Of a stretch of DNA of 16,403 nucleotides, positions 214-16,403 are shown piece by piece. Position 1 is the stretch's first letter. Every line of letters starts with the position of its first letter. The DNA is from Candidatus Micrarchaeum sp. (GTDB lineage Archaea > SpSt-1190 > DYHY01), in assembly GCA_020723935.1 (NCBI GenBank), contig DYHY01000015.1:11298-27700 (forward strand). The letters are read 5' to 3'. The position numbers and the translations under genes are program-made. The notes under the pieces are model-generated. The model was not told where the DNA came from and searched no databases. It saw nothing but the letters and a program-made list of their open reading frames with translations.

Positions 214-696
214 CTAGCAGGAACCGACCAACGGCTTGATCCCGGTGAAGATGTAGACGGTCCCGTACGTCGGGTCGGTGTAGTTGAACTGCAGGTCCGC
301 GACGCTCACAAGGAACGAGCCGGCGCCGGCGGTCGCGCAGAGCGTGCCGGACGTGGAGTTAGCGAGGAGGTAGAAGTTCGTCGTGCTCTCGCCAGGCGAG
401 AGGGTTACCGAGGAGCCCAGGCGCAGGCTCGAGGGGCTCGCGCTCTGGTTCTGGAGCTTCACCGCGAAGTTCTTGTTGTTCCTGAGAATCCCCCAGGTGC
501 CGGTGGAATTGGCGAAGTAGCGCACGATCGCGATGTCGGCTGCCTGCCAGTACATTGCGGAATCCTTCTCCGAGATCCCCTTGGATATGGTGGGGAACCC
601 GCCGAGCACCCCGACCACCGCGAGGGCTACGATGACAACTACGGCCAAAATCACCAGATATTCCGTGGACGCTTGCGCGCTCCGCTTTCCTTCCAT
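214..696 (-). CDS. Class III signal peptide type IV pilin (probable major pilin)
   Basis: This 160-residue prepilin is probably the main structural subunit of the pilus. Its N-terminus is short and basic (MEGKRSA), followed by Q8-A-S-T-E12-Y, the archaeal class III motif Q-x-S-x-E. Processing would fall between A7 and Q8, by an EppA-like prepilin peptidase as known for this class. A hydrophobic helix spans about 14-33, then a polar C-terminal domain. C120 and the last residue, C160, could form a disulfide closing the C-terminal loop. N-glycosylation sequons lie at N63, N83, N113 and N138. It is separated from the tadC genes and has its own promoter and near-zero leader, consistent with higher expression than the assembly genes. 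Major rather than minor status is inferred from position and promoter. Confidence 0.9.
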   Translation of the reverse strand: MEGKRSAQASTEYLVILAVVVIVALAVVGVLGGFPTISKGISEKDSAMYWQAADIAIVRYFANSTGTWGILRNNKNFAVKLQNQSASPSSLRLGSSVTLSPGESTTNFYLLANSTSGTLCATAGAGSFLVSVADLQFNYTDPTYGTVYIFTGIKPLVGSC

Positions 697-862: not shown

Positions 863-1867
863 CTAGACGGCGAGGAAGGACCCTAAGACGTAGTTCTGCA
901 CGACGTAGAAGACGGCGAGGGTCGCGGCGACGACGAACGGGGCGTATTTCAGGCCGCTCATCGCCCGCCCCTCCTGGATGACCCCGACGAGGACCGCCGA
1001 GAGTATCCCGTTGGCGATGACTATGAAATAGGATATGCGCGAGAGGAACTCCTTGCTCAAGGACACGCTCACCGCGAAGCCGCCTAGGGCCGCCGAGCCC
1101 GCTTCCGCCGTCGCGGCCGTGCCGGTCTGGAGGGCCGTTATCATGTCTATGAACCGCAGGGAGATCGCGAGGAGGACGGGCGTGCCTATTATCACGACGA
1201 AGAGGACGAAGAGGACGTACATCTTGGTGCTCGTGACGAGCTCGGCCTTCAGCTCCTGGCCCTTCCTTATGTCCTCGGCGGTGCTCTCCAGGAGCCGCGC
1301 CAGCTTCCCGCCGCTCTTGAGGCTCGCCGCGAAGAGCGAGACGACGCGCTCCAGGACGGCGGAATCAATGCGGCGCGATATTTCCTTCATCGCGTCCGTT
1401 ATGTTCTCCGTCCCGAGGGACTTGGTTGTCGCGTATTTTATCTCCTCCTCCAAGATCCCGAACTCGGGGCGGACGGCCGTTCGCAGGGCAACGACAGGGG
1501 TCATGCCGGAGCGGATGTTCGCCGCGACCAGCTGGAGATGGTCGGGAAGGATGCGCTCGACGCGCTTGCGCCTGTCCTCAACCCTCACGTAGACTGAGAC
1601 GTACATGAGGACGAGCCCTATCGCGAGGCCCGTCGAGAAGGCCGCGGCGAGGAACGGGGAGGAGAGCTTCAGAAGCCAGTATCCCGCCGCGAGGAAGGCG
1701 AGGCCGGCGAGGAGCGAGAGGACGATCGTGCGCCCCCACCACGCCTGCGGCTCGTCGGTCATCCCCGCGTGGAGGAGGGTCCGCCTGAACGTCTCGCGTG
1801 TGCCTTTCGGCACAAGGGATCCCAGGAGATAGTAGACGAAATTGCTGTCGCGCTCCGTCCTTGCCAT
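863..1867 (-). CDS. TadC-like pilus assembly platform protein 2 (T2SSF domain)
   Basis: This 334-residue inner membrane platform protein belongs to the GspF/TadC family. It probably couples ATP hydrolysis by the neighbouring TadA to pilin extraction and assembly. The first about 45 residues are cytoplasmic, with two hydrophobic segments at about 47-65 and 71-95. A T2SSF-type cytoplasmic helical bundle covers about 105-210, including the typical stretch LPDHLQLVAANIRSGMT (107-123). Further membrane segments lie at about 214-240, 278-297 and 308-333. It follows tadC1 after 19 bases, with a G-rich run that could act as a ribosome binding site. Bacterial Tad systems also use two such proteins, TadB and TadC. 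Its stop codon abuts the minisatellite. Confidence 0.85.
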   Translation of the reverse strand: MARTERDSNFVYYLLGSLVPKGTRETFRRTLLHAGMTDEPQAWWGRTIVLSLLAGLAFLAAGYWLLKLSSPFLAAAFSTGLAIGLVLMYVSVYVRVEDRRKRVERILPDHLQLVAANIRSGMTPVVALRTAVRPEFGILEEEIKYATTKSLGTENITDAMKEISRRIDSAVLERVVSLFAASLKSGGKLARLLESTAEDIRKGQELKAELVTSTKMYVLFVLFVVIIGTPVLLAISLRFIDMITALQTGTAATAEAGSAALGGFAVSVSLSKEFLSRISYFIVIANGILSAVLVGVIQEGRAMSGLKYAPFVVAATLAVFYVVQNYVLGSFLAV

Positions 1868-1886: not shown

Positions 1887-2804
1887 TCAGAGCGAGTGGA
1901 CCGCCGGCCTCCTCACCTTGATGAACCCTATTATCACGAGCTCCACCACGATGCACGCTCCTATTATCAGGATGAACACGGACTCCGTTATCCTCATCCC
2001 GGAGAAGGCGGACATGATGATGAGTATCGTCGTCCCGAGGCCCGGGACCGCGACCGCGAAGACCATGTAGACCATTGACCAGAGGTTGAGCTCCTGGGTG
2101 TAGGCCTTGATCTGGTCGCGCTGGTTCTTCTCCAGGACCACGAGGACGCTCTCGAGGGCCTTCTGCGCCCCGCTCCCGGCGCGCAGGGCGGTTATCACCT
2201 GCCAGAGCGCCTTCTTGAGGAACTCGGATTCCGTGTGCAGGGCGAGCTTCTCTAGGGCCTTGTCCTCGGGCATCCCTGCGTTTATGTCCTGCACGACCGC
2301 CCGGAACTCGTCGGAGACCGAGCCGTAGTCGGCGCGGCTCACGTTCACCATCCCGTCGAAGAGGGAGACGCCGGAGTCTATCTGGAGGAGCAGGTCCTTG
2401 AGCGCGAAGACGAGGTCCTTGTCCAATGTCTCGGCGCTCTTCCTGAGGAGCATCTTGGGATAGTAGAGGAAGAAGGCCATCAGGGCGATCACCATCACGG
2501 CGGGCGGGAGGAGGCCGATCTTTGCGAAGGCGAGCATCCCGGCGGACGTCCAGAGCGCCTTGGCGCCGATCAGCCCGCGGGACGTCCCGACGAAGACGAG
2601 AGCCGCGAACGCGGCGAGGGAAAGGAGCAGGGTGTTCACGATCGCGGCGCTCATGTATTCGCCCGCATCCATCCCGCTCTCCTCAATGTCGTACTTGAGG
2701 CCCGGGACGAGACCCGCGAGGAAGTAGGCGAGGCCTATCACGGGCCGCATCATCCTCGCGGAGGGCTTCTGCCTGACCAGGAAGAACACGGGGTCTGTTC
2801 GCAT
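1887..2804 (-). CDS. TadC-like pilus assembly platform protein 1 (T2SSF domain)
   Basis: This 305-residue membrane protein is the first of two GspF/TadC-like platform proteins. Hydrophobic segments lie at about 52-72, 88-115, 243-265 and 274-295. The cytoplasmic T2SSF-type domain spans about 127-240. It opens with LDKDLVFALKDLLLQIDSG (127-145) and contains a long amphipathic helical stretch after SEFLKKALWQVITALRAGSG (193-212). The ATG lies 3 bases after the ATPase stop codon, so the two are almost certainly co-transcribed and probably translationally coupled. It is only distantly similar to the following tadC2, which suggests an old division of labour, perhaps as a heteromeric platform. Confidence 0.85.
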   Translation of the reverse strand: MRTDPVFFLVRQKPSARMMRPVIGLAYFLAGLVPGLKYDIEESGMDAGEYMSAAIVNTLLLSLAAFAALVFVGTSRGLIGAKALWTSAGMLAFAKIGLLPPAVMVIALMAFFLYYPKMLLRKSAETLDKDLVFALKDLLLQIDSGVSLFDGMVNVSRADYGSVSDEFRAVVQDINAGMPEDKALEKLALHTESEFLKKALWQVITALRAGSGAQKALESVLVVLEKNQRDQIKAYTQELNLWSMVYMVFAVAVPGLGTTILIIMSAFSGMRITESVFILIIGACIVVELVIIGFIKVRRPAVHSL

Positions 2805-2807
2805 ACC

Positions 2808-4736
2808 CTAGGAATTGACCAGCCCCCTCACGTCGGACATCGAGCTCTTCTCGCGCCTTATGAGCGAGAGGAGCTCGGGGGTGTTCTTGTAGAACAGGCT
2901 CATCACGGAGCCGACGTCGTCCACGTCGCTTGCTCCGTTACGCAGCATCCAGGAGAGGACCTCCTCGCGCATCTTGAGGTCGTCGTTGAGCTCCCCAATC
3001 GTCATGCCCGTGTGGAGGTTGAGCTCCGAGAGGACGCGCGTGCTCTCCTCCTTCTTCTCGAACGCGTCGCCCCGCGCGCGCCAGCGGTAGAGGACGTTGA
3101 GGGAGAGGTTGCTCTCCTCGCCCGCGGCGGGGACGACCTCGGCTATCTCGTAGGTGCGCCTTATACCTTGCCGCCTGTCCCGGTACTGGACGACGATGAG
3201 GGGCAGGGCCTCCATCTCGGCGGCCGGCACGGAGATGGGGGGCTTGGTGAGCCTCCTCAGGACCTGCGCCGAATTGTCCGCGTGCAGGGTGGAGTAGACG
3301 GCGTGGCCCGTGTGCATCGCCTCGAACATCACCTCGGCCTCCCGCTGGCGCCGCACTTCGCCGAGGAATATCCTGTCCGGGCGCATGCGCAGGGCGGAGA
3401 CCATGAGGTCAAGCATCGACACCTCGCCCTTGCCCTCCGGGTTCTCGCCGCGCGTCGTCAAGGGGATCCAGTTCCACGCGAGGTACAAGGGCATCGAGAG
3501 CTCGCGGGTGTCCTCTATTGTGATTATCCTGTTCGTCGGCGGGACGAGGGCGCAGAGGGTGTTGAGGGTGCTCGTCTTCCCCGTCGCGGTGCCCCCGGCT
3601 ATGAGTATGTTCATCTCGTACTGTATCGCCTGCCAGAGGAAGGCGGCCATCTCGAGGGACATCGTCCTGCTCGCGGGCGAGATGAAGTTCGTGATCGTCC
3701 AGGGGTTGCGCGCGAAGCGCCGGATCGTTATCGTGTTGCCGCTCGTCGAGATCGGGAAGAGGGTCGCCGACACGCGGTCGCCCGTGGTGAGCGCCGCGTC
3801 CATTATCGGGTTGAGGTTCGTGATGTCCCTGCCGCTCTTCCGCCCTATCTGCGCGGCGTAGTTGTAGACCTCGGCCTCCGTGCGCATGTGCACGCTCGTC
3901 TTGAGCCAGCCCCATTTCCTGTGGTAGACCGATACCGGGAAGGATGCGCCGTTGATCCCGACCTCCTCGAGGGCGTCGTCGGCGAGGAGGAGCTCGATGT
4001 CCCCGAGGCCGTACATCCTGTGGAGGAGCGTGCCCGCGAGGATCTTCTTGTACTCCTCGGAGAGCTCCGGAAACTCCTGAATTATGCGCGCGTAGGCCGA
4101 GACGTAGAACTTCTCCTTGAGCGTCGCTAGCTTCTTTTGGTCCGTTATCTCCTCGACCTGCACGGGGCTCTCGCGGGCGAGCTCGTCTCGCACGAACTCA
4201 AGGAACGCGTCGGTGTAGGGGCCTATCTGCGGGGTCTCGATGGAGTAAACGGGCCTTATCTCGCCGGGGACCGAGAGGATTGTGACCGTCGCGGGGACTC
4301 CGGATGCGACGACGCTGTATGCTTCCACCGCGGCGCCGTTGAGCTTCGTCACCTTCCTCTTCTCAAGGTCTGAGAGGAGGCGCGCGCGTATCCGCGAGAA
4401 GACGCCCGTAGGGTAAATGAGCTCAACTATCCCCTTCTCCTGGAGGATCTTTGCCACGCGCTCCAGGCGGGCGGGATCGGCGCCCAGCTTCGCGGCGACC
4501 CTGTCCACCTCCTCAACATAGTCCTTGACGAACGAGAGGTTCCTGCAGAACAAGTCGACCTTGGTCTCGATGACTGGAGTAGTTGTCGGCACCTGCTTGA
4601 GGCTTTCGAGGAGGCTCGCCTCGGCCTTGGCCTCCTCGGCGCGCTCGCGCTCGAGGAAGGGCTCGTGCACCTCGCTCCTTACGTTCTCAAGGAAGCTCTT
4701 TTTGTTGCCGCTTGCCGCCGTCGGCTGGTCGGGCAC
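2808..4736 (-). CDS. tadA: TadA/VirB11-like secretion ATPase (type IV pilus assembly motor)
   Basis: This 642-residue cytoplasmic ATPase belongs to the GspE/TadA/VirB11 family and would form a hexameric motor driving pilin assembly. It has an N-terminal extension to about residue 110, a PAS-like N-terminal domain to about 340, and a RecA-like C-terminal domain. Walker A is GGTATGKTS (381-389), the Asp box IITIEDTREL (404-413), the Walker B region DRIFLGEVR (454-462) with E460, and the His box MHTGH to STLHA (474-486). All key residues are present. The start is taken as GTG at 4736, which lies 26 bases after a TATA-like element. A tail of about 130 residues beyond the core resembles other archaeal pilus ATPases. 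No second ATPase or ArlH-like protein is seen, so it is not an archaellum cluster. Confidence 0.93.
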   Translation of the reverse strand: MPDQPTAASGNKKSFLENVRSEVHEPFLERERAEEAKAEASLLESLKQVPTTTPVIETKVDLFCRNLSFVKDYVEEVDRVAAKLGADPARLERVAKILQEKGIVELIYPTGVFSRIRARLLSDLEKRKVTKLNGAAVEAYSVVASGVPATVTILSVPGEIRPVYSIETPQIGPYTDAFLEFVRDELARESPVQVEEITDQKKLATLKEKFYVSAYARIIQEFPELSEEYKKILAGTLLHRMYGLGDIELLLADDALEEVGINGASFPVSVYHRKWGWLKTSVHMRTEAEVYNYAAQIGRKSGRDITNLNPIMDAALTTGDRVSATLFPISTSGNTITIRRFARNPWTITNFISPASRTMSLEMAAFLWQAIQYEMNILIAGGTATGKTSTLNTLCALVPPTNRIITIEDTRELSMPLYLAWNWIPLTTRGENPEGKGEVSMLDLMVSALRMRPDRIFLGEVRRQREAEVMFEAMHTGHAVYSTLHADNSAQVLRRLTKPPISVPAAEMEALPLIVVQYRDRRQGIRRTYEIAEVVPAAGEESNLSLNVLYRWRARGDAFEKKEESTRVLSELNLHTGMTIGELNDDLKMREEVLSWMLRNGASDVDDVGSVMSLFYKNTPELLSLIRREKSSMSDVRGLVNS

Positions 4737-5342: not shown

Positions 5343-7219
5343 CTACCGCTGCCCGGCGCGCGTCAGCCTGTACACCCCGGCGTCGCCCACCGTCAGGTAG
5401 CCGGACCTTATCTTCCCCCACTCCTGAAGCTCGAAGCCCTGCCCCCGCGCCCAGTTCCTGTCGAACTCGTTGCGCTGGGGGAAGACCTCCGGCAACATGA
5501 GATACGCCGGATAAGTCGAGAGGATGCGCTCGAGTATTTCGGGCTTTTCCATGTAAGGTATGACGACCGCGTTGCAGAGGAAGGCGGGGCCGATCTTCGT
5601 GTAGTCGGATGCGAGGAACACCGCGTTCACCTCGATGGGCTGGCCGGAATAGCCATAGAGCTCGCAGCCCCTCGAGCCGGGCACAACGGTCAGGCGGGCG
5701 AACTCTCCCGGCGGAAGGCGCGCGAAGAGGAGGTCGGCGCGCGCGGGAAGGATCGGGAATCCCTCCCCAACCCGCGCCTCGGTGGGCGTGGCGGCAGGCC
5801 ATTTGAGGGCGGAGAACCTCGCATACCACCTAGCGTCCTGCGGGAAGGGCCCGGCGCGCGAGGGCGAAGAACGCGAGGAGGATCAGGAGGGCGAGCCCGG
5901 CCGCGGCGGCGATCGCGCGCCCCTTCTTGGGCGAGGAAAGGAGCGCTTCCGTCCCGATTACGGAAAGGAGGATGAGTGGCAAGACCAGGGCGGAGAGAAG
6001 CCATGTCTTGCTCGAGCCCCAGTTCTCCATCGGCAGGAGGAGGGCGAAGAACAGCAGCGGCCCGACGGACAGGGAAAGGGCGGGGCGGCGGTCCTTCCCC
6101 GCAAGGATGGCGCCGAGGAGGGCGAGGGCGAGGAGCGGCGCCCCGAAGGCCTTGATCATCAGGAGGGGCAGGAGGATGAAGACGGGATACGGATAGCCGG
6201 GCGTGCGCACGATCCCCCCTTGGAAGTTGAGGAGGCTGTTGAACCTGAAGCAGAGCGGTCCGAGGCACTGGAGGTACATCGGATCGTCCAGGGACGGGGA
6301 GATGACCGTCGTCTCGTGGACGAACGGGCTTCCCAGGAGGACGGAGTGTATCGCCGCCCAGAGGAAGGAGACCAGGGCGAAGGACGCGATGGCGCGCGCG
6401 GCCGCCTTGGGTTTCAGGCCGATGAGGACTGCGGGGAGGAATATCAGGACCGTCTCGTGCCTCACACCCACCATCGCCGAGCCTGCGAGGCCCGCAAGAG
6501 AGGGGGCGCGGGAGAGGAGGAAGAAAATCAGCAGCGCGACGTAGAGGGGGAGGAGGACGTACATAAGGACGTGGCGGTCCGCTCCGTTGTACATGAGGTT
6601 GGAGAGCGCCAGGGGGAAAACCGCGAGGGAGACTGCGACGGATGCCGGGGAGCGCGCGAGGAAGCGCCTCGCGCAGAGGAGCATGAGGAACGCGGAGGAG
6701 ACAAGAGAGAGATAGGAGTATCTGCGCGCCGAACGTCCCGAACAGGGAGATGAACGGGGCGGCGAGGACCGTGCGCCCCTCGGGCTGGTCGATGTCTATG
6801 GGGGCGAGAGAGTCCAAGAAGCGCAGGGCGTCTGGGAGGGGCCGCGCCGATTTGGCCCATGTCGCGGACGCGAAGTCGAAGGATATCCCGAAGGGGAAGC
6901 CTGCCGCCGAGGATGCCGCGTCCACGCCGTTGTCCTGCGGCGGGCGCGCGGAGAAGAGGAAGAGGACGAAGAGCGCCGCGAAGAGGAAGGCGCCGGAAGG
7001 GAAGGAGATGCCGGCCTTCTTCTTCCCGTCCTTCCCGGAGGGGGCGAGGAAGGCCAGGGCGAGGGCGGCGGCGAGGGCGAAGCCCCCCGCGGCCATCATC
7101 ACCGAGCGCTGGAAATAGGTGAAGTTGGACGCCGACCCGCCGAGGAACGCGGCGGTCGAGGCGAGGATCACGGCCGCCCCCGCGTTCCTCCTTAGAAAGT
7201 CCGGCACAGTCATCCCCAC
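5343..7219 (-). CDS. GT-C-like membrane glycosyltransferase, reading frame broken twice
   Basis: Joining three reading frames gives a protein of about 620 residues with roughly a dozen hydrophobic segments and a soluble C-terminal domain of about 165 residues. This is the layout of GT-C (PMT/ArnT-like) enzymes that use polyprenyl-linked sugars. Part 1 (7219 to about 6722) has three hydrophobic helices and a loop with LAPIDIDQPEGR. Part 2 (about 6720-5839) is almost all membrane helices. Part 3 (about 5837-5343) is soluble. Each junction needs one base skipped. I see no WWDYG motif, so it is not an AglB-type oligosaccharyltransferase. GTG 7219 and ATG 7213 are both possible starts; GAGGAG just before 7213 favours the ATG. 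The break may be assembly error or real decay. Glycosylation of the neighbouring surface proteins is an inferred role. Confidence 0.7.
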
Positions 7220-7222
7220 TCC

Positions 7223-8113
7223 TCAGCCCCTCGCGAGCACGAGCTGCGGGACGGCAGAGTCCCTGCCAGTGAGGTTCGCGATCGTGACGCTCCCGGGGAG
7301 ATAGATGGCCGTCGCGTTCGTGTAGTTCACGGTCACGGAAAGGGACGAGGCGACGGAGACGCCGGAGGATGCTACCCTCACCGCGAGCTGCCCGGCGGAT
7401 TTCGTCACGTTCAGCGCGTCCGGGGAGGTGGAATTCACCGCGAAGCGCAGGGTCCCGGCGTAGGAGACGCACCCCTGCGTGCAGCCCGCGACGGCCTGCG
7501 GCCCGCCGGTGCCGTTGGTCACGTTCAAGCGGACCTCGATGTCGGTCCCTGCGCACGGGAGCGTGCAGGTCGTCCAGCTCCACTGCGTGTCGTTCATCGC
7601 CTGCGTGCCGTCGTAGAGGAGCGAGAGGAAGTAGGCGACCGTCGCAGGGGGCGTGAGGACGGTGAGCCCGCGCTTCATCGGGTCGCCGTAGGAATAGTTC
7701 ACCGCGGCGCCGCTCGCGTAGGCATAGGGGTTCGCGAGGAGCTCGGAGACGTCCAGAGTGGCGTCCAGGTTGAGCTTGGCCGAAAGGGAGTCCTCGAAGA
7801 ACGCCTTGTAGCCTGAGAGCTCCGCGGAGGGCGAGGAATAGTCGGAGGGGAGGGAATCCTGGAACGAGACGGTCGTGTTCTTGGCAGAGCGCGAGACGGA
7901 TGCCGAAAGCCCGTAGAGCTCTGCGATGTTCCCGGCGGCGTTCCCGGAAAGTGTCCCCGCGCGCAGGGTGCGCCTGGCGAGGACGAAGGAGCGCTCGGAG
8001 GATGCGAGGAAGTCGGACGTGAGGAGGACTGCCGAGAGGAGCCCGAGGAAGAGCAGGGAGAAGGCTATCGTGAAGAGGACTGAGCGCCGCCCACCCCCCC
8101 GCTTCGCCATCAT
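7223..8113 (-). CDS. Pilin-like membrane-anchored surface protein (296 aa)
   Basis: The start is ATG 8113, which overlaps the preceding stop codon in an ATGATG/TGA junction; the frame is open further upstream but that part lies over the preceding gene. The N-terminus is basic (MMAKRGGGRR) followed by one hydrophobic helix (about 11-32) and an extracellular domain rich in N-glycosylation sequons. Cysteine pairs occur in TTCTLPCAG and GCTQGC and could be disulfides. Unlike its neighbours it has no acidic residue just inside the helix, so processing by prepilin peptidase is doubtful; it may stay a type II anchored protein. No family recognised. Its place last in a row of pilin-like genes suggests a minor pilin or a base or tip component. 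Confidence 0.8.
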   Translation of the reverse strand: MMAKRGGGRRSVLFTIAFSLLFLGLLSAVLLTSDFLASSERSFVLARRTLRAGTLSGNAAGNIAELYGLSASVSRSAKNTTVSFQDSLPSDYSSPSAELSGYKAFFEDSLSAKLNLDATLDVSELLANPYAYASGAAVNYSYGDPMKRGLTVLTPPATVAYFLSLLYDGTQAMNDTQWSWTTCTLPCAGTDIEVRLNVTNGTGGPQAVAGCTQGCVSYAGTLRFAVNSTSPDALNVTKSAGQLAVRVASSGVSVASSLSVTVNYTNATAIYLPGSVTIANLTGRDSAVPQLVLARG

Positions 8114-8541
8114 TTGAAGCAGAACCTCCCGACCGCGACGGCGCGCGTGGAGACGCCGCTGCCGTTGTCGATCACGAGGCCGCGCCTCGCAAAGACGCTC
8201 CTTCCGGCGTCGCACTGGCAGAGCGCCTTCCTCTCGCTTGCGAGGCGGCTCCCGTCCTCGCGGTCGACCGATATCTCCCAGCACAGCGAGGGCGGGGCGA
8301 CCGAGAGGGAACGGCCGATCGCCGAGGAGTTGGCGAGCGCCCTTTCCAGCGTCCCGTCGGCTTCCAGGGCCGCGAGCGAGCTCTCGGAGAGGAGGACGAG
8401 GTTCCCCTCGGAGAAGGAGGTGGGCCTGGCGGCCGACAAGGCCGACATTATCGAGAAGGACAGGATGCCGACGACAACTAGAGCGAGGAACGAGTCAAGG
8501 GTGAAGAATATCGCCCGCCTCCCGCCGCGGCTCGCAGTCAT
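8110..8541 (-). CDS. Minor pilin-like protein, non-canonical signal (143 aa)
   Basis: A basic N-terminus (MTASRGGRR) leads into AIFFTLDSFLALVVVGIL, a pilin-type hydrophobic helix with D16 near its start in place of the conserved Glu. There is no Q-x-S-x-E motif, so it is a divergent prepilin or pseudopilin. The C-terminal domain is small and polar, with four cysteines (LCWEIS, LCQCDAG and the final FCFK) that could form two disulfides. It has ATGA overlaps with both neighbours (8538-8541 and 8110-8113), which implies tight translational coupling and matched amounts. Confidence 0.82.
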   Translation of the reverse strand: MTASRGGRRAIFFTLDSFLALVVVGILSFSIMSALSAARPTSFSEGNLVLLSESSLAALEADGTLERALANSSAIGRSLSVAPPSLCWEISVDREDGSRLASERKALCQCDAGRSVFARRGLVIDNGSGVSTRAVAVGRFCFK

Positions 8542-9080
8542 TCGTAGGCCCCCAGCCAGATCATCAGGCTCGCCAGGGCGGACGATCCCTCGCTTGACAC
8601 GAACTGCGACGAGATGGTCGACGTGAGGTTGGCCGCGGGGCGCGCGAGGCCCGCGACAGGGACGTCCGTCCCGTTGGCAAGCGAGAGGTAGAAGTAGAAG
8701 TTGTAGCCGGGCTTTGAGATCCCGAGCATCCCCTTGAGCGCGGCGTAGTTCGTAGCGTTCGCGGCGGAGAGCGCGGAGACCTTTCCCGGATCAAGGACCC
8801 AGGGGGAGGACGCCAGGCCCACCGCGCGCACCTGCGAGCCCTCGGGGAGGCTCATGTTGTAGAGCGTCCAGTTGGACGGCTCCCCGGGCGCGGCGACGAG
8901 GGAAAGGAGCGCCGTCTGCGCGTCCTCCTGAAGGGCGGCGCGGCTCTCAAGGATCCCTATTGTCGAGGGGACTGTGGAGTTGAAAAGGAGGAACGTCCCT
9001 ATCAGGAATGAGAACACGACCATCGCGAACAGGGCGTCGAGGGCGAAGAGCTGCCCCTTCTTTTCAGTCCTGCGAGACAT
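8538..9080 (-). CDS. Minor pilin-like protein (180 aa)
   Basis: The N-terminus MSRRTEKKG is followed by Q10-LFALD15-ALFAMVV and a hydrophobic helix to about residue 33. The Gln and an acidic residue remain, but their spacing differs by one from the canonical Q-x-S-x-E class III signal, and the Ser is replaced by Phe. It is probably a divergent minor pilin. The extracellular part has sequons (NWT, NMS, NAT, NGT, NLT) and no cysteine. It starts inside the last 17 bases of the preceding gene and ends in an ATGA overlap with the next. Confidence 0.83.
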   Translation of the reverse strand: MSRRTEKKGQLFALDALFAMVVFSFLIGTFLLFNSTVPSTIGILESRAALQEDAQTALLSLVAAPGEPSNWTLYNMSLPEGSQVRAVGLASSPWVLDPGKVSALSAANATNYAALKGMLGISKPGYNFYFYLSLANGTDVPVAGLARPAANLTSTISSQFVSSEGSSALASLMIWLGAYE

Positions 9081-9501
9081 AGACTATCCCTCCGTTGTTC
9101 GTGATGTTAGTCCACCTGCCAGGGGAGATCAAGACGATCTCCCCTCCGGAGGAGCCGTTGAACCCCGAGAAGATGAGGGGGGCGGCGACCGTCTCGCTGT
9201 AGGCTGTCCAGTTGATCTCGGCGCGCCTGCCGACGACGCGCAGGGTGTAATTGGCGGACGCCGAGAGGGAGGGGAGGAGCCATATGCGCGCGGAGGCCCC
9301 CGGGCCCGCGAGGTGCACGAAGTTCGCGTTCCTCGCAAAGTCCCCCGCGACCTCCTTGGCCCCGTCCCGCAGGCGCAGCTCGGCCCAGTCGCGCCCCTTC
9401 TCGAAGTAGAGGCCGAAGAGGACAAGGAATATCAGGAGCATCCCCGCCCAGACGGCGAGGAAGTCAACGCTCACCTGGCCGCCGCGGCGCCGCCCCGTCA
9501 T
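9064..9501 (-). CDS. Class III signal peptide minor pilin (145 aa)
   Basis: The N-terminus MTGRRRGG is followed by Q9-V-S-V-D13-F, matching Q-x-S-x-E/D, then a hydrophobic helix to about residue 31. Cleavage before Q9 by an EppA-like peptidase is expected. The mature domain is about 110 residues, lacks cysteines and ends close to a sequon-rich stretch (NITNN). Start ATG 9501 overlaps the stop of the giant surface protein gene as ATGA. As the first small gene after the adhesin-like gene it is the best candidate partner linking that protein to a pilus. Confidence 0.85.
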   Translation of the reverse strand: MTGRRRGGQVSVDFLAVWAGMLLIFLVLFGLYFEKGRDWAELRLRDGAKEVAGDFARNANFVHLAGPGASARIWLLPSLSASANYTLRVVGRRAEINWTAYSETVAAPLIFSGFNGSSGGEIVLISPGRWTNITNNGGIVYVSQD

Positions 9502-12500
9502 GATACGCTGAACCCCTTCCTGCTCGCCACCGTCGGCCCGCCGCTGGAGTTTGCCCGCACCTCGAAGTAGTGGGAGCCAGCCGGGAGGGCCGACGTGTTG
9601 TACGTGAAGTTGTAGTTCCCGAGGCCCTTGTCCTGTACCGTCGAGACGGGGATGCTGGCGGAATCGACGAGGACGCTCATGTTCTGGTCGTGCGCCAGGT
9701 CCGCTATCCCCTCACCCATCTGGCTGTAGACGGTGAAGTTGACCGAGACGTTCTCGCCAGCGGAATAGAGGACCGGGGAGAAGCCTATCAGGACCGACCA
9801 GACGTTGGATCCGCCGCTCCCGACGTCGAAAGCGTTCGTGCCCGACACGCCCGAGGAGGCGGCCTTCGCCGTCCAGGTCCCGGTGACGGCTCCGAAGGGC
9901 AGGAGATAGCTCCCGTTGTAGACGCCCGCCGGGACCTGCGGGGCCGTGACGAAAGAGTAGCCCTGGAGGGCGCCGGAGGGCTTCCAGAAGCTCACGTTGA
10001 GGTCCGAGGACGTGAGGGCGTCGCTTGCGTTGTATATCTTGGCCCGGTAGTAGACGGTCCCGCAGGCGGAGACCGGGGAGGGGCTCTCCGAAACGGCGGG
10101 GCTGTAGACGGAAAACTCCTGCACGTCGGTCGCGTTCCATGCTCCTGTCGTGTCGTTGTACCAGATGCGCCAGTAGACGGGCGAGGGCGCAGAGTCGTTC
10201 CTCCAGCTGAAGTTGGAATACGTCCACGCTCCGCCCGTCCCCAGGTAGACGACAAAGCCCGTGTAGTTCGTCCAGGCGCCGGTCTCGTTGGTGGAGAGGA
10301 CTGCGTAGCCAAGAGACGTGTCGTTCCCCTCGGCGTAGAGCTTGACAGTGTCGCCTGCGTAGACGCTCGTCACGTTCCTCCCGGCGTTCCTCCACTGGGG
10401 CGGGGAGCTCGCCACCGTCGAGACGAGGGGGGAAAAGACGCTCCCGAACATCGTCACGTTCGCGTACGCGTAGTTTGCCGAAGTTTCCACGCCCGAGGAC
10501 GAGGAGAACGAGGGGGGATTCGTCCACCAGCTCCCGTTGTGCTTGGCGAGGACGACGCTGGGCTCCGAATACCCCCCGAGGTCCGAGTCAAGGTAGGAAA
10601 CGTTGAGGAAGACCCAGGCGCCCGCCGAGAGGTTCGTGACGTTCACGTACCTCGAAGCGTTTGCGAAGCTCCCGGGGTCGGCGGGCGGGGACGCCACCTC
10701 GCGCGCGGAGAAGTTCCCCGAATAAGTAAGGCTGAACGTCGTCGGGCGGGCCATGCCCACCGTGTTGTTCACGAACGAGTTTCCGGGCGATCCGGCCACG
10801 TACAAGTCCCAGCCGGTGTTGTTGTAGAGGGCGTTCCCGTACAGGGCGTTCCCGGTCCCTGAGGATCCGAGGAGGGCGCCGTGCAGCGAGTTGTTGCCCA
10901 GGATGTTGTAGCTGAGATTGCTGTAGTTGGCGCCCGAGAGCTCCGTGCCGGAGAGGCCGTTGTAGGACGCATTGTTCCCGCGGAATGTCCCGTTGGCGGA
11001 AGCTGTGTAGTAGAAGCCCCGCCGGATGTTGCGCGTCGCGTTGTTGTAGCTGGCGTTTATCAGGTCCGACGCGTCGAAGCGGAAGCCGTTCTCCGTGTTG
11101 TTCGCCGCCGTGTTGTTGAGGAACGTGTTGTTGTCCGAGCCGTCCACGGCGAAGCCGCCCATCCTGTTGTAGGAGGCGTTGTTCCAGAGGAAGAGGTTGC
11201 CTGTGGAGGCGCCGGTCAGCCAGAAGCCGTCCTCGGTGTTGTTGTGCGCGGTGTTGTTCCTGAAGTAGTTGTCCGTCGAGGAGCCGAGGACTATCCCGTC
11301 GAAGGCGTTGTAGCTCGCCGTGCTGTCGGAGACGTTGGAGAGGGCCGAGGAGCTCAGGTATATCCCGTAGCCGGCGTTACCGGAGGCGTTGACCGCGGTC
11401 GCGTTGGCGCCTGACGAGCCGTATATCGAGATGCCGTCGTTGGTGTTCGAGAAGGACGTGTCGGAGAAAAGGGTGCTTGCGTCCGAGGCTGCCGTGAGCG
11501 TGATGCCGTCGTAGAAGTCCCTGACGCGGCAGTTCCTTATCGTGTTCCCGCTCTTCCCGACGAGCCTTATCCCGTAGTCCGTCCCGGAGTCGTCGCCGGA
11601 GATCTGGTTGCCCAGGCAGTCGAAGGTCTTGGAGCTGAAGCCGGCCGGGTTGTTGATGCAGCTCCCGACCACCCCCGAGATCGGGGCGGTCAGGTTGACG
11701 ATCGGGCAGGAGGGATCGTTGAGCTTTCCGGCGCAGGTGGCGCAGGAGCTGCAGCCGCAGTCATAGCTCCCCACCTGCACATAGGTGGAGTTGACCGCCG
11801 TCCCCAGGGCGAACCCGTCGTAGGGCTGCACCGAGCAGATCCAGCGGTCGGCGAGGGAGAGGTTCCCTGAAAGGACCGTGGAGACGACGGAGTTCGTGCC
11901 GTTCGTGAGGGCCATCTGCGAGTAGAGCGACGTCTGGTTCGTCCCGTTCTTGAACCAGCTGACGATCGCGACCGGGGCGGGGTCGAAGTCGTCCGTGAGA
12001 GTGGCGTTGCACGTGAGGTTGTCCCCCGTCGTCGGGGACGCGGGGGAGACTGTCGGCGTCGAGGTGGACGGCGCGGAATGGACGAAGTAGGGCCGGCCGG
12101 CGGCTCCGGAGCCCGACGAATAGGGCGAGCATTCCGAATTCCCGGCGTCGCAGGCGAAGGCGAACCAGGAGTAGTTGCCTGCCTCTCCGGTCGTGTCGTG
12201 CGTGCAGGAGGCCTGGCTGCTGCTCGCCGCAGACGAGCTCTTGCATATCTGCTGGTGCCAGGGATCGCAGTCCCCCTTCTGGGCGAACGGATAGTCGCAG
12301 ACAAGGAGGCGCCAGTTCCCCCCTCCGAAGGTCGTGGCCGTCCCGGTGAAGGCGACGCTCGTCCCGGCGAGGGTGGGGGCTGCCTGGTCGCTCCCCCCGT
12401 CCGAGGGCCCGGCGGTGAAATTGAGGGGCGCCTCGTTTATCACGTCGTGGTATTTCACGACGTAGTTGGCCACAGTCGAGTTGAAGACGGAGGAATAGTT

Positions 12501-14705
12501 CCACTTGATGTCGGATGTGGAGCCGTTGTATATCCCGAAGGTGTAGTTGCTCAGGAACGCCCAGGTGGCGAGGAGCTGGTCCGTCCCCCAGCCGTAATAG
12601 TCGACCGCATCCATCCCGTACGCGACCGTCTGGCCGGCTCCCGAGCCGGTGCCGTCATCGAGGCCCTGGGCCGAGAGGGTGAGCGTGTTGTTCGTGCCGT
12701 TGTTGATCGACCCCAGCCGGTAGACCATCACGTCGTCCGCTGCGGTCACGCCCCTGTCTACCGAGACCGCGATGCGCGAGTGGTTCCAGTAGTTCTTCTC
12801 CAGGCCCGTCCCGACTCTTATGGAGTACGTCGTGTAGCCCGTGTTTATCATGCAGGCCGCCCCGCAGTTCGTGCAGACCCAGGTCGCGTTGCATCTCATG
12901 ACGCAGAGCTCGTTCCCGGCGCACGTCCCGGCGGAGTTCGTGGTCGCGGTCATGCCCCTGATGACCTCCGTGCTCGTCGTGTCCCCGTCGGCGTCCCCTA
13001 TGTAGAGGCTGTTGAAGGCGGCCCGGCCGTCGTGGTTCGTCGAATAGGTCTCGCGGCAGTCCTGCCCGCCGGTGCAGTTCCAGACCATGAACTCGTTGTT
13101 GTTGGTCGTCGTCGAGGCGGTGGCGGCGGTTGCGACGAGAGCGTTCTTGCCCGTCTGGTTGAGGTCGGCTATCGCCACGTTGGCGACGGCGGAATAGTAG
13201 TCGTTGGAAAGCCTCTGGTCCTCGGCGCACTTGGCGGTGTCGTTGCCGTATTTCACGACTATCGACCCGTAGCCCACGGCCAGGGTGAAGTTCATGTCCG
13301 CCGTCCCGTTGTAGATGGCGATGTCGTTGTAAGTCGCGTAGCGGGGCATCGTCCAGTTGTACTGCGCCCATGTGCCCGCGGCGCCCCCCGACCATCCGTA
13401 CTCGTCCATGCCGTTGGCCTGCACGATCGCGACGGCCTTGGAGGAGTTGTAGAACCTCACACGCGAGAGGGCGCTCGCCGTCGGCTTGGTGTCGTTTGAC
13501 CATGCGGCGCCGGTGTAGCGGATTATCTGGCCGTTGTTCGTCACGGCGAAGGCGAGGGTCGAGTTCCAGACGTCGATCGAGAGGAAGGGGCTCGCCGTCA
13601 GGGGGCTCACCTGGGCGACCCATGTCGTCCCGTTCCAGAGGGCGATGTTCCCGGCCGAGCCTACCGCCTGGGCGTAGGTGCCGTTCATTATACTCACCCC
13701 GTAGAATATGGCGCTCGGCGTCGCCATCGTCGACCACTGGGAGCCGTTCCAGCGCCAGATGTTTGTCACGGCGTTCGCGTTCCCCACCGCAGCCATCGCG
13801 AATGTCTTGTTGTAGACGTAGATGTGGTTGACGTTCACGGCCGCCGGAGCCGGAGTGCGGAACCACTGGTCCGGCGTCCCGTTCCAGTAGGCGAGGAACC
13901 CGTTCTGCCCGCCCGTGAAGCAGAAGGCCTCGCCGCTCTTGGCGCAGTCTATGTCCAGGGTGTTGTTCGTCGTGTTGAGGGACTCCCAGTTCCAGGCCGC
14001 CCCGTCCCAGCGGAAGGCTGCGCCCCCCATACCGACGATGAATGCGAGGTCGTAGTCATGGATCGTGGCCCCGGTGAAATTGTAGACGGTTCCGTTCTCC
14101 GAGACGTTCTGGGCGTACCAGCCGAAGTCGTTCGTCCCGCAGCGGAAGACCCTGACCTCCTGGCGGCCGGCGTTGGCCGAGAAGGTCGACTGCCCGACGA
14201 CCCACTCATTCACCCCGTCTCCGGAATTGTCGACGTCGCCGAAAGCCTGCTTGTCCCCGACGGCCACCCCGCCGTAGGGGAGGTCGAAGCTCTCCGAAGC
14301 GACGTATCTGCAGCCGAGGGAGTTACAGGCGTACGTCGTGAGCTCCGTCTGGCCGATGGTGTTCGACGCCGCCGCGTAGACGCTCGTCTCGTTGAGGCCG
14401 TCCGCGTCCAGGTCAGCCACCTGCACGCCGTAGACGGCGCGACCGAACTCCTTGCCCAGGGTCGCGTTCTCCGCGCATGCGCTGCCGGCCGCGCAGGTCT
14501 GCAGGAAGATCAGCTCATTCCCCGCCGCCCGGGTGTTGGTGCCAAGGAGTATCCGCTTGTACGCGAAGGAGGGGGCTAGCTGGACGGCGAGCAGGAGGGC
14601 CGCGAGGGCGACGAGCAGGAGGATCGCGCAGGCTGGCCGGGCGCGCCTCCCGCAGTTCCTACGGTTCCTACGGCGTCCTGCCGAATATCCCGCGGGATAT
14701 TTCAT
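9498..14705 (-). CDS. Giant secreted surface protein with beta-propeller and NosD-type beta-helix, putative pilus adhesin
   Basis: This 1735-residue protein has a basic N-terminus and a hydrophobic signal segment (about 26-47). In order: Ca-loop or FG-GAP-like motifs (DLDADGLNE at 98-106, DVDNSGDGVNE at 157-167); a propeller-like region (205-490) with W/Y-x-G motifs every 38-47 residues; further DxDxD loops (about 510-585); a Cys cluster (601-618); Ig-like regions (about 767-980); a Cys-rich linker (983-1000); a 12-rung beta-helix (1045-1317); and beta-rich, Ig-like domains to the end. I count about 80 N-x-S/T sequons. There is no C-terminal anchor, so retention by partners or by the uncleaved N-terminal helix is needed. 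It overlaps the upstream gene by 38 bases and the next by 4. Adhesion or tip function is inferred. Confidence 0.85.
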   Translation of the reverse strand: MKYPAGYSAGRRRNRRNCGRRARPACAILLLVALAALLLAVQLAPSFAYKRILLGTNTRAAGNELIFLQTCAAGSACAENATLGKEFGRAVYGVQVADLDADGLNETSVYAAASNTIGQTELTTYACNSLGCRYVASESFDLPYGGVAVGDKQAFGDVDNSGDGVNEWVVGQSTFSANAGRQEVRVFRCGTNDFGWYAQNVSENGTVYNFTGATIHDYDLAFIVGMGGAAFRWDGAAWNWESLNTTNNTLDIDCAKSGEAFCFTGGQNGFLAYWNGTPDQWFRTPAPAAVNVNHIYVYNKTFAMAAVGNANAVTNIWRWNGSQWSTMATPSAIFYGVSIMNGTYAQAVGSAGNIALWNGTTWVAQVSPLTASPFLSIDVWNSTLAFAVTNNGQIIRYTGAAWSNDTKPTASALSRVRFYNSSKAVAIVQANGMDEYGWSGGAAGTWAQYNWTMPRYATYNDIAIYNGTADMNFTLAVGYGSIVVKYGNDTAKCAEDQRLSNDYYSAVANVAIADLNQTGKNALVATAATASTTTNNNEFMVWNCTGGQDCRETYSTNHDGRAAFNSLYIGDADGDTTSTEVIRGMTATTNSAGTCAGNELCVMRCNATWVCTNCGAACMINTGYTTYSIRVGTGLEKNYWNHSRIAVSVDRGVTAADDVMVYRLGSINNGTNNTLTLSAQGLDDGTGSGAGQTVAYGMDAVDYYGWGTDQLLATWAFLSNYTFGIYNGSTSDIKWNYSSVFNSTVANYVVKYHDVINEAPLNFTAGPSDGGSDQAAPTLAGTSVAFTGTATTFGGGNWRLLVCDYPFAQKGDCDPWHQQICKSSSAASSSQASCTHDTTGEAGNYSWFAFACDAGNSECSPYSSGSGAAGRPYFVHSAPSTSTPTVSPASPTTGDNLTCNATLTDDFDPAPVAIVSWFKNGTNQTSLYSQMALTNGTNSVVSTVLSGNLSLADRWICSVQPYDGFALGTAVNSTYVQVGSYDCGCSSCATCAGKLNDPSCPIVNLTAPISGVVGSCINNPAGFSSKTFDCLGNQISGDDSGTDYGIRLVGKSGNTIRNCRVRDFYDGITLTAASDASTLFSDTSFSNTNDGISIYGSSGANATAVNASGNAGYGIYLSSSALSNVSDSTASYNAFDGIVLGSSTDNYFRNNTAHNNTEDGFWLTGASTGNLFLWNNASYNRMGGFAVDGSDNNTFLNNTAANNTENGFRFDASDLINASYNNATRNIRRGFYYTASANGTFRGNNASYNGLSGTELSGANYSNLSYNILGNNSLHGALLGSSGTGNALYGNALYNNTGWDLYVAGSPGNSFVNNTVGMARPTTFSLTYSGNFSAREVASPPADPGSFANASRYVNVTNLSAGAWVFLNVSYLDSDLGGYSEPSVVLAKHNGSWWTNPPSFSSSSGVETSANYAYANVTMFGSVFSPLVSTVASSPPQWRNAGRNVTSVYAGDTVKLYAEGNDTSLGYAVLSTNETGAWTNYTGFVVYLGTGGAWTYSNFSWRNDSAPSPVYWRIWYNDTTGAWNATDVQEFSVYSPAVSESPSPVSACGTVYYRAKIYNASDALTSSDLNVSFWKPSGALQGYSFVTAPQVPAGVYNGSYLLPFGAVTGTWTAKAASSGVSGTNAFDVGSGGSNVWSVLIGFSPVLYSAGENVSVNFTVYSQMGEGIADLAHDQNMSVLVDSASIPVSTVQDKGLGNYNFTYNTSALPAGSHYFEVRANSSGGPTVASRKGFSVS
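10755..11573 (-). repeat. Protein repeat: 12-rung right-handed beta-helix (NosD/PbH1 type)
   Basis: In the giant protein each rung starts with G-[IFTA]-x-[LVFY] and ends with an N-rich turn such as NNT or YN. Rungs begin at residues 1045, 1067, 1091, 1114, 1137, 1160, 1184, 1207, 1230, 1253, 1276 and 1300, a spacing of 22-24. This is the signature of PbH1/NosD-like parallel beta-helices, which in secreted proteins often bind or act on polysaccharides. Asparagines stacked at turns also create many of the sequons. At DNA level the units are diverged, so this is an old repeat rather than a recent expansion. Confidence 0.85.
13236..14093 (-). repeat. Protein repeat: WNG-type beta-propeller region
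   Basis: In the giant protein residues 205-490 carry seven [W/Y]-x-G motifs (around 235, 276, 321, 359, 399, 440 and 487), each at the end of a strand such as IWRWNGSQW or IALWNGTTW and mostly followed by a Trp a few residues later. The 38-47 residue spacing fits one blade each, which suggests a seven-bladed propeller. The fold is inferred from periodicity only. Confidence 0.6.
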
Positions 14706-15429
14706 TGAGTTCCTCCTTCCTCCTCTCCCGCCCTGCGTCCGTGGCGCGGGATTTCTTCTGCAATTCCCTGAAAGCGACGAAGAGCAGACCCAGGGAAACG
14801 GCGCCGTAGCCTGCGGCGGAAAAGAGTGGGCCGGCCAGCTCGGCCGATATCTCGGAGCTGCCGAACCCCGGGACGGGGCCTGAGAAGCCCGAGACGCGGG
14901 TGCCCTTCCCGGAGAAGAACACTGCGGCCCGCCCGTCCTGCGGGAACGAAACGGAGCGTATGGACACCTTGCGGACGCCGGGCGCGCCGCCTGAGGACAC
15001 AGAATATTCCGGCCCTTCCGCGGAGAACTCGACGGAACCTCCCGAGACCGTCGCGAGCTCCTCGTAGGCCTCCGAGCCGTCCTGCGCGAACTGCACGAAG
15101 GCGACCGTCAGCGGACTTTCCGAGGGGGAGAGCGAGAAGGTCACCGAATAGTTCAGCCCGGCGAAGGCCGTGAATTCCGGGGATTTCGCGAAGAGGCCGC
15201 GCTCGTTCTCCCCGAAGGAGAGGGCAGGGGCCCTTGTTATCAGGAATCCGGCTTCCTGCGACATGAAAACGTCGCTCCCCCCGGCGACGGCGTCCTCGTC
15301 AAGGCCGTCGGGCTGCAGGCGCACGTGCCAGCCGCCGGCAAGCGATGCCTGCGCCGAGGCCGGGGAGGATGTGAGGAGGACGGCTGCCGCCATCGCCGCG
15401 AAGAGGACCAGGACAAGGGGACGCGCCAT
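14668..15429 (-). CDS. Type I membrane protein with a secreted beta-rich domain
   Basis: A clear signal peptide (about 1-26, ending SSPASA) precedes an extracellular domain of about 170 residues rich in Ser, Gly and aromatic strands. One membrane segment (about 198-221) follows, then a charged cytoplasmic tail of about 32 residues containing QKKSR and GRERRKEE. There is no pilin signal, no cysteine and only one sequon (NYS). It starts 3 bases after the preceding stop codon and its last 38 bases overlap the giant protein gene, so their translation is probably coupled. No family recognised. It could anchor the giant protein, which lacks a C-terminal anchor, to the membrane; that is inferred. 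Confidence 0.8.
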   Translation of the reverse strand: MARPLVLVLFAAMAAAVLLTSSPASAQASLAGGWHVRLQPDGLDEDAVAGGSDVFMSQEAGFLITRAPALSFGENERGLFAKSPEFTAFAGLNYSVTFSLSPSESPLTVAFVQFAQDGSEAYEELATVSGGSVEFSAEGPEYSVSSGGAPGVRKVSIRSVSFPQDGRAAVFFSGKGTRVSGFSGPVPGFGSSEISAELAGPLFSAAGYGAVSLGLLFVAFRELQKKSRATDAGRERRKEELNEISRGIFGRTP

Positions 15430-15432
15430 CGC

Positions 15433-16403
15433 TCAGCAACCCCCCACCGAGAACTGCTGCGAGCGCATTGAGGCCGGCGAGGAGTCGGTGACGTTGACCG
15501 AATACGTCCCGCCCGGGAGGCCCGCCGGGCTCCAGACGTAGGAGAACCCGCCAGTTGCGTTCGCCGTCACGGGGGCCGATGCGATCTGAGAGCCCGTCGA
15601 GTTGTAGACGTAGAGCGTGAGGGCTGCTCCGGCCGGCCAGGCGGAGCCCTGGAAGGTAGCGTTCGCCGGGCCGTCGAAGATGAGCTTGGGGACGTCGTAG
15701 CTGGAATTCTTGAACGTCTCGATCGTCACGTAGGAGACGTTCACGGTCGACCCGTCCTGCGCCGAGACGTGCACTGTGAGCGGGACTGTTATCGTCTCCC
15801 CGTTGCTTGCGGCGAAGGTCACCGAGCCCGAATAGGGCCCGAGGGCCTGCGAGGATGCGTAGATCAAGAGCGTCGCGTTCTGCGAGGAGCCGGAAGGAAG
15901 GGGGAAGTCCAGGGCGCTCGTGTTCCCGACGGACACCTCCGCCGCATTCCAGGAGAGCGTTCCGTCGACCGTGAGGGCGGCCTCCCCGAAGTTCGTCACG
16001 GTCATGTTCTCCTGGACGCTTGATGCGCCGTACATTTCCGCGTAGATAGAGGCGGGGGAGACCTGCACGACCGCCGGTCCTATCTGCACGCTCCCCTCGA
16101 AAGCCGTGACTGTGAGCCAGTAGCCGCCGGGTGTGCCGGGCCAGGAGCCGAAGACCGTCTCGCCGGCCCGCGCGTTCACGTCGCTCAGGCCCCCGGGCGT
16201 GCCGATGGCCAGGTTGATGGAGTGGCCCGAGATTGAGGAGCGGGTGAGGTTCGCGGCGTCGGGTATCGTAACGTAGACGACCTTCGTGGAGTTGACGCCC
16301 TCGGAATACACCTCGTCGGCCGATTTCGCCAGGTTCTCCACCGCCGATTTGGCCTGGGAGAGGGAAAGGGATGCCTGGGTGTCTATCATCTTCTGCTGGG
16401 AGA
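15433..16403 (-). CDS. Class III pilin-like surface protein, 5' end beyond the window
   Basis: The frame is open to the right edge; the last visible residues before the first in-window Met are SQQK. The visible 322 residues begin with an amphipathic stretch followed by LAKSADEVYSEG and a strand KVVYVTIPDAANL. This pattern is typical of archaeal proteins whose class III signal and hydrophobic helix lie just upstream. I therefore treat the Met at 16389 as internal. Two Ig-like modules follow (about residues 105-205 and 228-305 counted from that Met), and the protein ends in Cys. It heads the surface-protein operon seen here, with its stop codon 3 bases before the next start. Confidence 0.8.
   Translation of the reverse strand, partial: SQQKMIDTQASLSLSQAKSAVENLAKSADEVYSEGVNSTKVVYVTIPDAANLTRSSISGHSINLAIGTPGGLSDVNARAGETVFGSWPGTPGGYWLTVTAFEGSVQIGPAVVQVSPASIYAEMYGASSVQENMTVTNFGEAALTVDGTLSWNAAEVSVGNTSALDFPLPSGSSQNATLLIYASSQALGPYSGSVTFAASNGETITVPLTVHVSAQDGSTVNVSYVTIETFKNSSYDVPKLIFDGPANATFQGSAWPAGAALTLYVYNSTGSQIASAPVTANATGGFSYVWSPAGLPGGTYSVNVTDSSPASMRSQQFSVGGC

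Follow-up and report, generated by a model that had tools for sequence, protein, structure and literature searches.

A five-pilin cassette beside a TadA/TadC motor in DPANN archaea and its proposed exchangeable head

What does a secreted protein of 1735 residues do among a series of pilin-like genes next to a pilus motor? This question is raised by a stretch of 16,403 nucleotides of Candidatus Micrarchaeum sp. (hereafter the window), which forms the right end of contig DYHY01000015.1, its last base being the contig end (27,700), in a 1.14-Mb, 91%-complete archaeal genome. A preliminary description of this DNA compared the run with the bacterial operons that encode PilY1 together with minor pilins, and suggested a tip-adhesin complex built by the same logic from unrelated parts. 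Here, we have analyzed the genes of the window and their relatives in other archaea. The features, in window coordinates, are as follows.

15433..16401, minus strand: P1, class III minor pilin with Ig-like ectodomain, 322 aa, N-terminus lost at the contig end
14668..15429, minus strand: P0002, 253 aa, signal-like N-terminus and C-terminal TM segment as read from the sequence
9498..14705, minus strand: P0003, putative giant secreted head protein, 1735 aa, with signal-like N-terminus, repeats, beta-helix and Ig-like domains
9498..10106, minus strand: C-terminal module of P0003, ~200 aa (residues ~1534-1735), proposed dock
9064..9501, minus strand: P2, small class III pilin-like protein (QVSVDF, by inspection)
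8538..9080, minus strand: P3, pilin-like protein (KGQxxxxxD)
8110..8541, minus strand: P4, pilin-like protein, small here and giant in most relatives
7223..8110, minus strand: P5, pilin-like protein without an N-terminal acidic residue
5690-7219, minus strand: multi-TM gene that separates P5 from the ATPase, broken by a frameshift at a short TC tract near 6700
2808..4736, minus strand: P0010, TadA/ArlI-type secretion ATPase (PF00437, 6e-32)
1887..2804, minus strand: P0011, TadC-like platform protein 1 (one PF00482)
863..1867, minus strand: P0012, TadC-like platform protein 2 (one PF00482)
214..696, minus strand: P0013, class III type pilin (AQASTEYL), probable major pilin

The genes follow one another on the minus strand in the order P1, P0002, P0003, P2, P3, P4 and P5, mostly in overlapping frames; the junctions measure 3 nt (P1/P0002), -38 (P0002/P0003), -4 (P0003/P2), -17 (P2/P3), -4 (P3/P4) and -1 (P4/P5). 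Thus, the compact run described earlier was borne out in its gene content and overlaps, but P1 is cut by the contig end, the propeller assigned to the giant is unproven, and the start given for a 353-aa open reading frame had been called too early: P5 likely starts at 8110, as judged from its homologues and its coupling to the P4 stop.

Downstream of P5, on the same strand, the frameshifted multi-TM gene is followed by the TadA-like P0010, the TadC-like P0011 and P0012, and the class III-type pilin P0013. The statement that the pilin-like set adjoins a TadA/TadC motor stands, since PF00437 and two PF00482 domains were found in the same run. Among NCBIfam models, P0010 matched FlaI (3e-78) and TadA (2e-50), both under the equivalog cut-offs. 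The multi-TM gene appears glycosyltransferase-like by eye and gave no match in a Pfam search, and its frameshift may be an assembly error, decay or slippage. Homologues of P0013 occupy the same position in the loci L067, L072 and L131. To the left of the window (L021:9401-11993), several similar class III pilin copies stand in a row, one of them with a masked stretch, which suggests a multi-gene major pilin array. The sole match to prepilin peptidase (Peptidase_A24) in this genome lies on contig C20.

On the basis of gene content and the spread of the P3 family (see below), the window appears to belong to the clade-1 or Epd-like archaeal pili. According to Makarova et al. (2016; PMC4858521), clade-1 pili comprise a pair of TadC proteins, five or more minor pilins and large proteins containing DUF2341; Denise et al. 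(2019; PMC6668835) regard Epd-like pili as the origin of bacterial Tad systems. The window shares with such systems a TadA-like ATPase, two single-T2SSF-domain TadC genes, no fewer than five class III minor pilins and a large predicted adhesin. It differs in that DUF2341 is absent and that the large protein, a beta-helix/propeller-like head ending in a conserved C-terminal module of its own, is encoded separately.

We then consider the pilin-like proteins themselves. A class III-type N-terminus (basic residue and glycine, hydrophobic helix, acidic residue) was found in P2, P3 and P4, and in P5 without the acid. Among relatives, an acidic residue stands seven places after the basic one in 33 of 40 P3 and 35 of 36 P4 sequences, and none of 38 relatives of P5 has D or E in the N-terminal stretch. 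In bacteria, GspK is without the N-terminal acidic residue and sits at the very tip. The AF2 model of P3 (pLDDT 90) consists of a long helix (residues 4-63) and a four-stranded sheet; against PDB folds it gave weak general matches, with Z at most 7.3 and no solved pilin among the best. Its globular domain was best aligned to PAS/CACHE-type sensor domains, at a Z (7.3) below the trustworthy level. It should be noted that the labels P1 and P2 rest on position beside P3, because the P1 and P2 profiles also match major pilins.

P1 was first described as a class III-like surface protein. The signal that this implies is absent from the truncated window gene, whose 322 aa are a minimum size, but it is visible in the orthologues of L067, L184 and L229. 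P1 of L067 begins with the class III motif AQSSLELL and is 31% identical to the window P1 (E 2e-22); the corresponding values for L184 are 28% and 3e-20, and across these three proteins the similarity spans most of the length. Profile search of P1 gave sub-threshold MG2 and choice-of-anchor D matches. The C-terminus of P1 was also compared with that of the giant, and the similarity was not significant (score 46, within shuffles). P0002 had no relative among 247 archaeal genomes and no Pfam or NCBIfam family and, as far as sequence comparison goes, is an orphan membrane protein.

The giant P0003 contains a beta-helix (PF13229, 2e-35; PF05048, 1e-22), three clear Ca-loop-like motifs (residues ~98, 157 and 571), a repeat region with self-similarity of z about 7 and Ig-like domains at the C-terminus. 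Ca-loops, a beta-helix and a propeller had been assigned to it; the first two were found, but the propeller, although plausible, is suggested by repeats and by eye, and Pfam gave no propeller profile match at E<=0.5. The AF2 prediction for residues 46-768, from the single sequence without relatives, had a pLDDT of 31. When the whole protein was searched against 61 genomes, matches outside its own genome were confined to the beta-helix and Ig-like parts, with none in the N-terminal 800 residues, and profile and PDB sequence searches with the head and the C-terminal module returned nothing convincing. Two candidate families were rejected: PilC/PilY1, as P0003 had no match to PF05567 or IPR008707 (Pfam, E<=0.5) and its conserved C-terminus is Ig/MG2-like, and the DUF2341 adhesins, as PF10102 was absent in Pfam.

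To examine gene order in related genomes, a survey that the preliminary description had proposed, we fetched 80 relatives with the ATPase as query and then labelled their genes with P1-P5 profiles. The order P1-P2-P3-P4-P5 beside TadA-TadC-TadC was conserved in MAGs of Micrarchaeota, Diapherotrites, Aenigmatarchaeota and Woesearchaeota. This five-pilin cassette was found in dozens of archaeal loci, chiefly DPANN, and a recurrence of this extent is more than chance. A KaiC/FlaH-type ATPase adjoins the cassette in relatives. The P3 family was present in 230 of 394 sampled archaeal genomes and reaches a Thermococcus-like locus (L227), in which DUF2341 is found on P5. The genome of the window has a second cassette (L053, contig C20:28553-35334, the contig of the prepilin peptidase match), in which P4 has 659 aa and a free giant is absent; the ATPase frame of this cassette contains one TGA. 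Another kind of pilus locus was seen in class-mates (L061-L065). It comprises an ATPase, two TadC, a Cys-rich protein and a class III protein; in contigs that extend far enough, these are joined by a large secreted protein, which has DUF2341 in L061, and a further pilin-like protein.

With few exceptions, a cassette encodes a single outsized ectodomain, and the position of this part varies. In 23 cassettes with a large P4 (593-1472 aa), P1 was always the pilin alone, with 175 aa or less, whereas in 14 cassettes with a small P4, P1 had at least 322 aa in 13, the truncated window P1 included; the exception (L068) has no large part at all. A Fisher test of the pattern gave 4e-9, on rows that are related and not independent. 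The tally was hand-cleaned, with a P4 cut-off of >=590 aa and with L069, L089, L141 and the window P1 relabelled by hand. Nine P4 giants were scanned, and a vWA domain was found in seven, LVIVD propeller repeats in four and a LamG-type lectin domain in one; one P1 giant also carries vWA. On the P3 tree, the head variants need about seven changes, and at least two per variant are forced by supported branches. The nearest cassette to the window on this tree, L229, has a P1 of 691 aa and no separate head; this suggests that the head was split off or joined recently.

These fusions bear on two other readings of the locus. First, the cassette might be a type II secretion-like pseudopilus and the giant the substrate that it exports, such as a beta-helix protein acting on polysaccharides. 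Substrates can be encoded beside their export machinery, the operon holds several pilins, and many carbohydrate-active enzymes have the beta-helix fold that is seen in the giant. However, a released substrate has no need of the pilin fusion found in relatives, P0003 already has a signal-like N-terminus, there is no sign of an outer membrane, and genes for probable major pilins are part of the same run; we consider this reading quite improbable. Second, instead of a tip head, the giant could be a structural or scaffold component, positioned at the base of the pilus or where it leaves the S-layer, or else an accessory distributed along the filament. This would fit the placement of minor pilins near the pilus base by Makarova et al., made by analogy with the archaellum (PMC4858521). 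On the other hand, vWA, propeller and lectin-like ectodomains, and their variability, suit binding heads, and modular pilins are modelled at tips (PMC8179133), which leaves the scaffold with only a slim chance of being right.

In three cassettes, a separate secreted protein is present between P1 and P2: the window (1735 aa), L067 (569 aa; Micrarchaeota MAG NC_groundwater_1741) and L184 (732 aa; genome G085, of a different family), which are three divergent lineages. The N-terminal parts of these free heads differ, with one Ig-like domain shared by P0003 and L184, and the C-terminal modules are homologous: P0003 matched L067 at a blastp E of 2e-14 (Smith-Waterman z 23) and L184 at 2e-12. The L067 match was missed by the default filters of phmmer and was recovered by blastp and phmmer --max. 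In the genomes searched, strong full-length module matches (E<1e-10) came solely from the P1-P2 slot of the window, L067 and L184; weaker matches, to single domains, were obtained for instance with P1 giants next to P2-P3 in L214-L217. The docking role of the module is a guess, because it belongs to a broad Ig/MG2-like class. MG2-like matches were also seen in a 12,373-aa open frame in the genome of L067 (G061 contig C12 around 109-138 kb; L186, L187), which would encode a surface protein of extreme size.

The shared module and its slot also bear on whether P0003 is instead an S-layer or general surface glycoprotein that is expressed along with the pilus and covers the cell, not the pilus tip. 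P0003 is large and, with 81 N-x-S/T sequons, is probably glycosylated; archaeal surface proteins often contain beta-helix and Ig-like domains, which gave matches in unrelated contexts, and S-layer-like proteins are present in archaeal pilus loci (PMC4858521). Nevertheless, the slot between P1 and P2 is fixed in three lineages together with the C-terminal module, no C-terminal TM segment or anchor was seen in P0003, and in relatives the large part is fused straight to a pilin. A surface coat thus seems unlikely, though it deserves more weight than the secretion and scaffold readings.

Comparison with bacterial tips clarifies how far the PilY1 analogy carries. In PilC/PilY1 proteins, the carrier part at the C-terminus is conserved and the head at the N-terminus varies (PMC8179133), and PilY1 caps the minor pilins of the tip (PMC10191384). 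Like PilC/PilY1 with FimU/PilVWXE of bacterial T4aP, the large non-pilin protein of the window is encoded with minor pilins, P2-P5 lying directly downstream in overlapping frames; it also has a conserved C-terminal part and a variable N-terminal head, and P4 heads of relatives join vWA with a propeller. Unlike PilC/PilY1, the conserved part of P0003 is Ig/MG2-like, and any propeller lies in the variable part. The P4 and P1 giants resemble modular pilins such as S. sanguinis PilB and PilC (PMC8179133) in that vWA, lectin-like and other modules are grafted on a pilin, whereas the window head is encoded separately with its own signal-like sequence.

Thus, the proposal of PilY1 logic with unrelated parts holds in several respects: the cassette stands by TadA/TadC, a free head with a shared module occurs in three lineages, and vWA and propeller fusions are found elsewhere. 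Independent occurrence of the giant and the pilin genes had been named as evidence against the idea, and this objection applies in part: most cassettes have no separate giant, and the head is not conserved. The suggestion that such a complex is undescribed in archaea does not stand, since a PilY-like tip adhesin role was already proposed for archaeal DUF2341 proteins (Makarova et al., 2016; PMC4858521). The words DPANN and Micrarchaeum are absent from the main text of that paper, as is DPANN from Denise et al. (2019; PMC6668835), and in the open-access literature we found no description of a DPANN cassette, of head swapping or of a free head with a conserved dock. The new elements here are an architecture in which heads are swapped and a free head whose conserved C-terminus may serve as a dock. 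The analogy is partly supported: it is better grounded than before, and its novelty is below what was claimed.

Taken together, we lean towards the window being an Epd-like or clade-1-type archaeal type IV pilus locus whose P1-P5 tip complex displays one exchangeable head, here P0003. P1-P5 would form an initiation or tip complex, and P5, which is without the acidic residue, may cap it from the outermost position, the place of GspK in bacteria. This complex would carry one large exchangeable head, fused to P4 or P1 in most relatives; in the window, the head would be P0003, secreted as a separate protein and attached through the conserved Ig-like module at its C-terminus. The variable N-terminal head, with its beta-helix and probable propeller, might bind a surface or a partner cell, which would make the tip adhesive. 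A broader proposal is tentative, and we rate its chance at somewhat under even: an archaeal non-pilin tip effector, unrelated to PilY1, could dock via its C-terminal Ig-like module on a five-pilin complex with a GspK-like P5, and DPANN and other archaea could fill this slot with a free head or with a P1 or P4 fusion, so that modules recognizing hosts or surfaces are interchanged.

Little is known about how archaea of small size, which often depend on a host, select and retain their partners, and direct data on archaeal pilus tips are sparse. The cassette, with a single exchangeable head for each pilus, would provide named genes to test. Our results suggest that the design of a carrier bearing a head, as in bacterial PilY1 and modular pilins, has also evolved from unrelated components, and that five small pilins with different large heads may give archaeal pili an exchangeable grappling or sensing tip.
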